Shown here: piece by piece, positions 10,414 through 12,558 of the stretch
Position numbering within the stretch: the stretch's first letter is position 1
Layout of the letters: each line of letters opens with the position of its first letter
NCBI GenBank assembly: GCA_025355505.1
Contig: JANXZM010000103.1
Span: 1 to 50,771, forward strand
DNA from: Acidobacteriaceae bacterium
GTDB taxonomy: Bacteria > Acidobacteriota > Terriglobia > Terriglobales > Acidobacteriaceae
DNA length: 50,771 bases
Direction of reading: 5' to 3'
Translations under genes and position numbers: made by a program
The notes under the pieces: model-generated
What the model was told of the DNA's origin: nothing
The model's input: only the letters and a program-made list of their open reading frames with translations
Databases searched by the model: none

Positions 10414-12459
10414 TTAGGAGGCTACTCTGGCGTTCGAAGGCTCATACTCCACAATGTACCCCGCCACCGCGCTCGCTGCCACGGTCAGCGGCGACGCCAG
10501 GTACATCTGCCCCGGCCCGCTGCGTCCGGGAAAATTTCGGTTCTGCGCACTGATGACGACCTGGTCGGGGCGCGTCGATACTCCCGGCCCCGCATTGATG
10601 CACGCGCCACAACTGGGTTCGATCACATGCGCGCCCGCTCGCTCGAAAATCTCAAGATAGCCTCTGCGCTTCGAGTACTCGCGGGTTTCCTGCGAACCGA
10701 ACTGGATCCAGAACTCGACATTCTTCGAAACTCGTTTTCCCTGCTGTAAAGCATCGGCGAGAACGGACGCGTACATGTCCATGTCCTCGTTCTTCCCCGC
10801 GGTACAAGTTCCGCCATAGGCGATTTCAATCGGCACGCGCGCGTCGAGTTCGCGGATGTATTTGCCGTTTCCTGGATCGCCCGGAGTTGCAACCATAGGT
10901 GCGATCTCCGCCGCGTCGAGTTCAATCACCTCGGCATATTCGGCGTCCGGATCGCTCTGCAAGCCTTCGATCATTTTTTCAATTTCGGCACGCTCCATGC
11001 TGCGGCGCTCCATCAGAAACTCGATTACCTTTTCATCGGGAGCGACGATGCCGGTAAAGCCCCCGATCTCCGCCGCCATGTTCGTCATGGTAGCGCGCTC
11101 GTCCACGGAAAGCGCCTCCACCGCTTCGCCCGCGTACTCCATCACTTTTGCCAGCGCCTTGCCGCTGCGCACGTAATCGAGGGAAAGAATCTTCAGGATG
11201 AAATCTTTCGCCGTAACATTCGGATACCGCTTGCCCCGAATGACGATCTTGACCGACTCCGGCACCTTGACGCGAACGTCTTTGGTGATCCAGGAGTTGA
11301 ATACGTCGGTCGTGCCGATGCCGAAGGCGATGCATCCGATGGCGCCGACGTGCGGCGTGTGCGAATCGGACCCTACATTCACCTGCCCCGGCAGCGCATA
11401 GGTTTCCAACATCACCGAGTGGCATATGCCCTCCGAGCCTTTCCTGTCGGTGAGTTCGCCGTGCAGCTTGATTCCCTGCCGCTTGGCGAAATCTTCCTGC
11501 TTCAGCTTGAGTTGAGTGGCTAAATCGAGCAGCCCCATCTTTTTCTTTTCTTCGGAAATGACCTCGTCGAGAAAGGTGAGGTGGTCGCGGAAGAAGCGGA
11601 TGCTCGAGGCGTCGTTGACTGGAACATTTTTGCCGACGCATTGCTCGTAAAAAATGGACGCCATTGGCGTGACGTACTCATGGCTGAAGCGCAGATCGAC
11701 GCTGGTAAAGCCGGTGTCACCCGGCTTGACGGCGGCAACGCCGACCGTGCCCTCGGGCGTGACCATATGCCGAGCAAGAATCTTCTCCGCGAGAGTCATG
11801 GCTTGTGTAGGGCGGACACTCTTGTCCGCCGCCTTTGTCGGCGGCAGAAACACTTTCCCTTGCATGCGCGCCACATTGAAGGGGAAAAGTCCCCCGTATT
11901 CGATCACCTGCCGAGTGATCTCATCTTCTCCAGCAGTGAATTCACTGAGCGCGATTTCTTCTCCGGCACGAATCCGGTCGATCAAAGAAAAGTCGGTTGA
12001 AGTCAGCAACCCAAGATTCTGGCAGTTCTGCTGGTAGATGCGCTCAATATTCTCCCCAATCGCGACTTGAATCCCGGCACACATTTCCGCATAGGGCGAC
12101 TGCTCGCGACTGGAGCCTTTGCCGCGACGCTTACCGCTCACCGAGCACACGAATCCGCCTTTCTTCACATCGCCGCGTCCAATTGGCAGCGCGTCGCCGC
12201 ACCTCAAGCCAACGTAAGGAATCTCGCCGAGCGTCCGGTCAAAGTAGAAGCAGCAGTGCGCGGGAGTAATCTCGTCGGTAGAAATGTCGTCGCGGAGTTT
12301 GGGATTGCCGGCTGGATTCTTCGTGTCCCACGGCAGATCCCAACCCGCGAGTTGCTTCTTGATCAACTCCGGGTCTTCGGTGAGAAAAAGAATGCGTCCC
12401 AGCAGCCGCACCTTGTCGGGACGCTTTTCAACCTTGCGTTCAAGAAGAGACGAAATCAC
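10414..12459 (-). CDS. aconitase-family hydratase, fused small-then-large domain order
   Basis: This is a 681 aa [4Fe-4S] hydro-lyase (aconitase, homoaconitase or isopropylmalate isomerase superfamily). The small swivel domain comes first (residues 45-165, with the DDISTDEITPAHC block and the GSSREQSPYAE substrate loop). The large catalytic domain follows from about residue 220, starting MTLAEKILARH. Cluster ligands are C552, C617 and C620 (GGTCTAG and EPSCGACINAGPG). The GSDSHTPHVGAIGC block is intact. AcnB also has swivel before catalytic core, but with an N-terminal HEAT domain that is absent here. The large part starts like a LeuC or homoaconitase large subunit, so a LeuD-LeuC-like fusion is likely. 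Citrate, homocitrate and isopropylmalate chemistry cannot be separated from sequence alone. The start codon is GTG, without a clear ribosome binding site. Confidence 0.9.
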   Translation of the reverse strand: MISSLLERKVEKRPDKVRLLGRILFLTEDPELIKKQLAGWDLPWDTKNPAGNPKLRDDISTDEITPAHCCFYFDRTLGEIPYVGLRCGDALPIGRGDVKKGGFVCSVSGKRRGKGSSREQSPYAEMCAGIQVAIGENIERIYQQNCQNLGLLTSTDFSLIDRIRAGEEIALSEFTAGEDEITRQVIEYGGLFPFNVARMQGKVFLPPTKAADKSVRPTQAMTLAEKILARHMVTPEGTVGVAAVKPGDTGFTSVDLRFSHEYVTPMASIFYEQCVGKNVPVNDASSIRFFRDHLTFLDEVISEEKKKMGLLDLATQLKLKQEDFAKRQGIKLHGELTDRKGSEGICHSVMLETYALPGQVNVGSDSHTPHVGAIGCIAFGIGTTDVFNSWITKDVRVKVPESVKIVIRGKRYPNVTAKDFILKILSLDYVRSGKALAKVMEYAGEAVEALSVDERATMTNMAAEIGGFTGIVAPDEKVIEFLMERRSMERAEIEKMIEGLQSDPDAEYAEVIELDAAEIAPMVATPGDPGNGKYIRELDARVPIEIAYGGTCTAGKNEDMDMYASVLADALQQGKRVSKNVEFWIQFGSQETREYSKRRGYLEIFERAGAHVIEPSCGACINAGPGVSTRPDQVVISAQNRNFPGRSGPGQMYLASPLTVAASAVAGYIVEYEPSNARVAS
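11806..11846. repeat. two-hairpin intergenic-type element inside the aconitase-family gene
   Basis: The sequence holds hairpin GCGGACA-CTCT-TGTCCGC (11812-11829). CCGCC-TTTGTC-GGCGG follows directly (11829-11844). Read on the coding strand it encodes part of the linker between the swivel and catalytic domains (roughly residues 205-217, PPTKAADKSVRPTQ). It has the look of an intergenic repeat captured in frame. Confidence 0.75.
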
Positions 12460-12490: not shown

Positions 12491-12558
12491 TGGAGCGACG
12501 GGCGTCCTCGCCCGTCCTTGGGCAGCCAGGTGGCCGGGCGGGGACGCCCGGCGCTCCA
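12491..12558. repeat. palindromic GC-rich intergenic element
   Basis: Inverted repeat with outer arms TGGAGCG...CGCTCCA and inner arms CGGGCG/CGCCCG, ending exactly at the suhB stop. A shorter relative of the same element lies at 16659-16694. It may act as a transcription or mRNA-stability element, but no T-tract follows. Confidence 0.75.

Follow-up and report, generated by a model that had tools for sequence, protein, structure and literature searches.

The linker between the two domains of a fused aconitase-superfamily gene from an Acidobacteriaceae bacterium holds a REP-type repeat, and the domain fusion is older than this repeat, which arrived later, because fused orthologues across the phylum have a short linker that is free of it. 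The gene lies in a stretch of 50,771 nucleotides, which is called the window here. We propose, with a probability of about 0.88, that an old Acidobacteriota fusion received an in-frame, GTAG-tagged REP insertion at a tolerant linker, that such insertions have recurred across relatives, and that the repeat is a passenger rather than a scar of the fusion.

The fused enzyme and the age of its fusion

The gene occupies positions 10414 to 12459 on the reverse strand and encodes 681 amino acids from a GTG start, with no internal stops. A first-pass annotation of the sequence had described a fused gene with the swivel domain encoded first and the catalytic domain second, and Pfam and NCBIfam domain placement, together with the orthologues, agrees with this order. 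Pfam places Aconitase_C (PF00694), the swivel, at residues 108 to 153 and Aconitase at residues 225 to 667, both above cut-off. The LeuD/HacB-like swivel domain spans residues 54 to 171 (11947 to 12300, reverse strand), as evidenced by TIGR02087, PF00694, and the small subunits 1v7l, 3vba, and 2pkp from the PDB; the LEUD_arch match among the NCBIfam models covers these same residues. The LeuC/HacA-like catalytic domain at residues 225 to 667 (10459 to 11787, reverse strand) emerges from Pfam, NCBIfam, alignment, and structure matches. All of the listed NCBIfam matches to LeuC/LeuD and HacA/HacB models score below their curated (equivalog) cut-offs. Among solved structures, the nearest are archaeal-type isopropylmalate/citramalate isomerase and homoaconitase subunits, with 4nqy matching the catalytic half (E of 7.1e-65) and 1v7l matching the swivel (E of 1.3e-7).

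Three cysteines of the catalytic domain (Cys552, Cys617, and Cys620) are conserved without exception across 32 aligned sequences, as is a GSSRE motif at residues 115 to 119. We take the cysteines to be the ligands of a [4Fe-4S] cluster and GSSRE to be substrate-binding residues. Judged from its sequence, the fused protein is probably a [4Fe-4S] hydro-lyase, for which we infer catalytic activity and a substrate, and the enzyme encoded in the window presumably still works, because the frame is open and the remaining sequence is conserved. The sole usual neighbor is an inositol monophosphatase-type gene, which is adjacent or near in 49 of 62 loci; as a clue to the substrate, this neighborhood is uninformative.

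The catalytic half opens at Met221 with MTLAEKILARH, and matches to LeuC/HacA-type models in NCBIfam start at residues 220 to 222, which bears out the earlier remark that this segment resembles the beginning of a free large subunit. The start Met of that subunit is indeed still visible (11797 to 11799, reverse strand), and the orthologue alignment retains it in 95 of 96 sequences. An internal start at Met221 was considered and rejected, since a Shine-Dalgarno-like signal lies ahead of the catalytic Met in only 1 of 94 sequences, versus 81 of 1289 other internal Met codons.

Linker length was compared among 96 distinct orthologues, comprising 94 full-length distinct rows plus L037 and L040; four partial loci (L034, L035, L038, and L039) and 20 exact duplicates had been dropped before these counts. 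A short linker of 12 residues, measured from the conserved segment before Leu-Pro to the catalytic Met, is present in 67 of the 96 orthologues. The other 29 have a longer linker, 26 of them by at least four residues. A search of the phylum returned a match at an E value of at most 1e-60 in 54 of 199 genomes. In 46 of these 54, the match has at least 41% identity and covers both halves (in two pieces in G083 and G147), whereas seven have large-subunit-only frames of 418 to 462 amino acids at 37 to 41% identity, and in G100 the match is partial, with 39% identity, and lies on the edge of a contig. Across the phylum, orthologues with as little as about 41% identity are a single fused open reading frame (ORF). 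Of 43 distant loci that were aligned, 42 have the same short linker, and L188 has 47 extra residues.

A GTAG-tagged REP in the linker and its relatives in the genome

The interdomain linker comprises residues 204 to 220 (11800 to 11850, reverse strand). Within it, a GTAG-tagged REP copy at 11805 to 11838, on the forward strand, is read in frame and translated as ...AADKSVRPT.... Its core is a perfect palindrome, GGCGGACA-CTCT-TGTCCGCC, that forms a hairpin at 11811 to 11830 with arms of 8 bp and a loop of 4 nt. A copy on contig C37, adjoining the gene for ribosomal protein L4, is identical over all 34 nt. Relative to the commonest linker, the net change in length is +18 nt, which is less than the 26 to 34 nt or so of recognizable repeat; therefore, this was no clean insertion, and the repeat took the place of some original linker sequence.

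The first-pass annotation had drawn a two-hairpin element from 11806 to 11846 and thought that it looked like an intergenic repeat. The first hairpin does lie in the 34-nt repeat, and the intergenic character holds, but the second hairpin (11828 to 11845, with arms at 11828 to 11833 and 11840 to 11845) does not belong to the element. It is half repeat flank and half native codons, and we judge it fortuitous and exclude it from the repeat because one of its arms consists of Leu-Pro-Pro codons that are also present in element-free orthologues, and because that arm is missing at the C37 copy.

Within the window alone, the palindrome pattern is weak evidence, with one match at three mismatches against a chance mean of 0.55. 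The source genome (4,160,867 bases in 119 contigs) has 14 exact copies of the window-type palindrome, and the reversed control has none. GTAG stands beside the stem in 9 of these 14 copies, including the one in the window. REP-type palindromes are thought to be mobilized by Y1/RAYT transposases. There are eight matches to Y1_Tnp transposases in this genome, and two of the eight loci (L076 and L078) are adjoined by GTAG palindromes of related sequence that are not of the exact window type; no exact window-type copy lies beside any of the eight. The identification of the linker element as a REP-type repeat is based on the 14 copies against none in the control, the GTAG tag in 9 of 14, and the related palindromes at two of the eight Y1 transposase genes. 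The window-type palindrome is also present in 25 of 61 relatives searched, and in 21 of 24 within the genus, while the control is absent from all 61.

The 14 copies are mostly intergenic. Two lie clearly within conserved genes, namely, the fused gene and a family-2 glycosyltransferase (L070:4602-5849, forward strand). Two further copies (L063 and L066) are in possible N-terminal extensions, and the ORF call at L068 hinges on the choice of start codon. At L063:2862-4907 (reverse strand), the copy sits in open frame immediately before the probable start of selB, and gene callers may assign SelB a false N-terminus owing to this REP. Also, four window-type palindromes occur inside 1 kb at L064:1886-2885, by restriction-modification genes (N6_Mtase and ResIII).

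A different type of REP is found just upstream of the fused gene, where two inverted GACGGGCG-type REP palindromes in a REPIN-like arrangement (12491 to 12558) lie in the short gap between it and the inositol monophosphatase-type gene. The genome has 62 exact copies of GACGGGCGNNNNCGCCCGTC, among them positions 12497 to 12516, and none of the control.

Four other conserved genes of the genome also contain REPs in frame. The glycosyltransferase at L070 carries a window-type REP (ADAEADKSVRPRR), as evidenced by the genome copy survey and by an alignment in which an insert is present at the REP site in 10 of 15 orthologues and missing in five. Two of its relatives (L210 and L211) have two inverted REPs at that site, amounting to a whole REPIN. 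We further inspected 15 of the 62 GACGGGCG-type loci, four of which fall in ORFs that carry Pfam domains; these encode an ABC exporter, a dihydrodipicolinate-synthase-family aldolase, a GHMP kinase, and an FAD oxidoreductase. In the ABC exporter (L230:751-2703, reverse strand), the repeat is in frame and separates the first strands of the nucleotide-binding domain. Alignment with solved structures is interrupted by the insert, residues 376 to 399, and the loop is strongly variable among 12 aligned orthologues at exactly that position. Structure matches likewise break at residues 193 to 262 of the aldolase (L225:1087-2244, reverse strand) and at residues 191 to 273 of the IspE-like GHMP kinase (L233:902-1963, forward strand), both of which have repeat-derived insertions. 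In the FAD oxidoreductase, the repeat sits ahead of the domain and may be outside the true gene.

Two insertion sites and the competing explanations

The linker is the first of two insertion hot spots in the orthologue alignments. The second, loop 2, comprises residues 231 to 245 (11725 to 11769, reverse strand), where relatives have inserts at about residues 233 to 243, some 20 residues beyond the linker; the copy in the window has none. Of the 96 orthologues, 26 have a linker insert of at least four residues (a cut-off of three likewise gives 26) and 21 have an insert of at least three residues in loop 2; in 50, the linker is not lengthened and loop 2 is free of inserts. Elsewhere in the protein, internal inserts of at least three residues are confined to five rows (L030 at residue 89; L120 and L127 at 487; L036 and L037 at 499), and short C-terminal tails, counted apart from these, occur in five. 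On a tree built without the linker and loop region, by a quick method with SH-aLRT support only and with many open forks, a minimum of 19 changes was needed in the linker and of 15 in the loop, or 20 and 14 when other length cut-offs were applied; gain and loss are indistinguishable from these counts alone.

Several unrelated repeat families are present at the two sites. A GACGGGCG-type pattern, GGACGGGCGNNNNCGCCCGTCC, occurs in 26 of 61 genomes, and TTCGACNNCGCTCAGGNCAGGC, from a TTCGAC...CAGGC repeat, occurs in 28 of 61, in each case with a control of zero; one copy of the latter is inside the fused gene of G009. In G083, from a different taxonomic family, AGTACCACCTGCGNNAGCGGGTGG has 21 exact copies (control, zero), one of them in the same linker. 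The pattern for a second subfamily, GCGCGGGCGNNNNCGCCCGCGC, was weak and was set aside, with matches in 14 of 61 genomes and controls in two. In flanking sequence that had not been chosen by repeat (0.69 Mb), a comparison of low power, only two linker queries and four loop-2 queries had an off-gene match.

Among the 29 lengthened linkers, 12 had stems that beat shuffled sequences (p of at most 0.05), versus none of the 67 short ones; for loop 2, such stems were present in 12 of 21 loops with an insert versus 5 of 75 without. In 14 of the 29 lengthened linkers, stems were no better than shuffles (p of at least 0.3), which suggests that many inserts are decayed repeats or non-palindromic, such as the types of 25 to 28 residues and L109. 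The linker of L109, at 54 residues, is made of short PNRA-type, hexapeptide-like repeats and is unlike the palindromic inserts. Only one of 96 orthologues has both inserts, against 5.7 expected (hypergeometric, 0.006), but we do not claim that the two exclude each other, since independent pairs were nonsignificant (eight pairs; median p of 0.25). The assembly G015 has two versions of the gene (L003 and L031) that share 96% identity beyond this region, the insert being in the linker in one and in loop 2 in the other; these are possibly two strains in one bin.

The sequence of events that we favor begins with the old fusion, in Acidobacteriota, of a LeuD-like swivel domain and a LeuC/HacA-like catalytic domain. 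Long afterward, a nonautonomous GTAG-tagged REP, mobilized via RAYT/Y1 transposases, would have entered the interdomain linker in frame and replaced some of the native linker. Most palindromes would land between genes, and those within genes would persist solely where the frame is kept and the site is tolerant. The REP may have been retained, in a nearly neutral manner, since a flexible linker would tolerate changes in length and sequence; the nearby loop would tolerate other repeats in other species, and both sites are probably exposed.

The first-pass annotation had favored a fossil fusion, in which a repeat between separate LeuD-like and LeuC-like genes became the linker upon loss of a stop codon. 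The mostly intergenic location of the repeat elsewhere and the surviving large-subunit Met would fit this idea, to which we nevertheless give very little credence. Fused homologues with a short, hairpin-free linker occur across the phylum, in other genera and in other families, including distant ones, and the Met is equally conserved in orthologues without the repeat and lacks a Shine-Dalgarno signal. The alignment that had been suggested as a check yielded these hairpin-free fusions and, among the 54 matching genomes of the 199 from the phylum, no close homologue in which the small and large genes are separate neighbors. Both of the refutations that had been foreseen, that all homologues are fused and share the same linker or that the element is unique in the genome, were formulated too simply. 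How domains came to be fused is not shown by the presence of a repeat at their boundary. That the hairpin is instead functional, slowing ribosomes on the mRNA or shaping the folding of two domains so that the palindrome is under selection, is also unlikely, if less so. Its position at the boundary and the differing stem sequences that are still paired at the same place in several species speak for selection; independent arrivals of different repeat subfamilies would also yield differing paired sequences, however, and the hairpin is missing in 67 of 96 orthologues and decayed or unpaired in many that bear an insert.

Growth of the linker by local slippage or drift, with the palindrome as a GC-rich coincidence and no mobile DNA involved, could hold for a few relatives, considering that some inserts (the 28-residue types and the hexapeptide-like repeats of L109) have no palindrome. 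For the copy in the window, it is very unlikely in view of the exact 34-nt identity with another copy, the 14 genomic copies against none in controls, and the same repeat in other genes and at intergenic sites. An assembly artefact or a pseudogene is scarcely credible: the assemblies are drafts in many contigs and many of the named relatives are metagenome assembled, but the orthologues that span both halves have open, stop-free frames, and inserts appear in many independent assemblies.

Beyond the passenger reading, one might imagine that REPs and REPINs are a continuing, transposase-driven source of linker and loop peptides for conserved enzymes in Terriglobales and other Acidobacteriota, with unrelated families converging on one linker and some peptides co-opted into protein function. 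We regard this broader idea as speculative and rather improbable. Two sites of one enzyme repeatedly struck by different repeats provide a natural insertion scan of tolerant positions.

Comparison with known systems

Both domains and the Cys residues are common to the window protein and to the separate LeuC/HacA and LeuD/HacB subunits (4nqy, 4kp2, 1v7l, and 2pkp), and its catalytic half begins as free large subunits do. It differs in being one chain, swivel first, with NCBIfam scores under the curated cut-offs. Aconitase B (AcnB) has the domain order HEAT-swivel-catalytic. Its catalytic domain is C-terminal, as in the window protein, which has no HEAT domain and whose match to AcnB (PDB 1l5j) is confined to the catalytic part, residues 473 to 821 of 865.

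Literature searches returned no paper on both Sulfotelmatobacter and aconitase; for REPs and Acidobacteria, the relevant papers were that of Di Nocera et al. (2013; PMC3733652) and PMC6006769, and on REPs within reading frames there was nothing closer. As far as these searches show, two things are new: that in-frame REP insertion occurs in Acidobacteriota, and that unrelated repeats have made use of one linker again and again.

In kind, in-frame REP insertion at tolerant linkers is known from Rickettsia (PMC10969869) and from recB of Xanthomonas (PMC3733652). In its passages on GTAG REPs, Di Nocera et al. describe a short palindrome with GTAG at one end, present in many copies that are mostly extragenic and in some cases intra-ORF (PMC3733652). 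There, GTAG is the tag of a known REP superfamily, tyrosine transposase genes are flanked by such repeats, and different REPs lie at about the same recB site in two Xanthomonas species. GTAG repeats are listed for Proteobacteria, Cyanobacteria, Chloroflexi, and the PVC group, and the passage of that paper on Acidobacteria concerns TIRYT transposases. The repeats described here are alike in palindrome, GTAG tag, copy number, mainly extragenic location, and intra-ORF copies; they differ in that they occur in Acidobacteriota and in that one linker was struck in many species by unrelated families.

Finally, the palindromic elements of Rickettsia are in-frame repeats of about 150 bp in genes for conserved proteins, as summarized in a review (PMC10969869, citing Ogata et al. 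2000, 2002). The likeness is an in-frame repeat in a gene whose homologues are without one, whereas the element in the window is only about 34 bp and belongs to a family that is mostly intergenic. Protein-coding palindromes, best known from Rickettsia, are thereby extended to environmental Acidobacteriota with large genomes.
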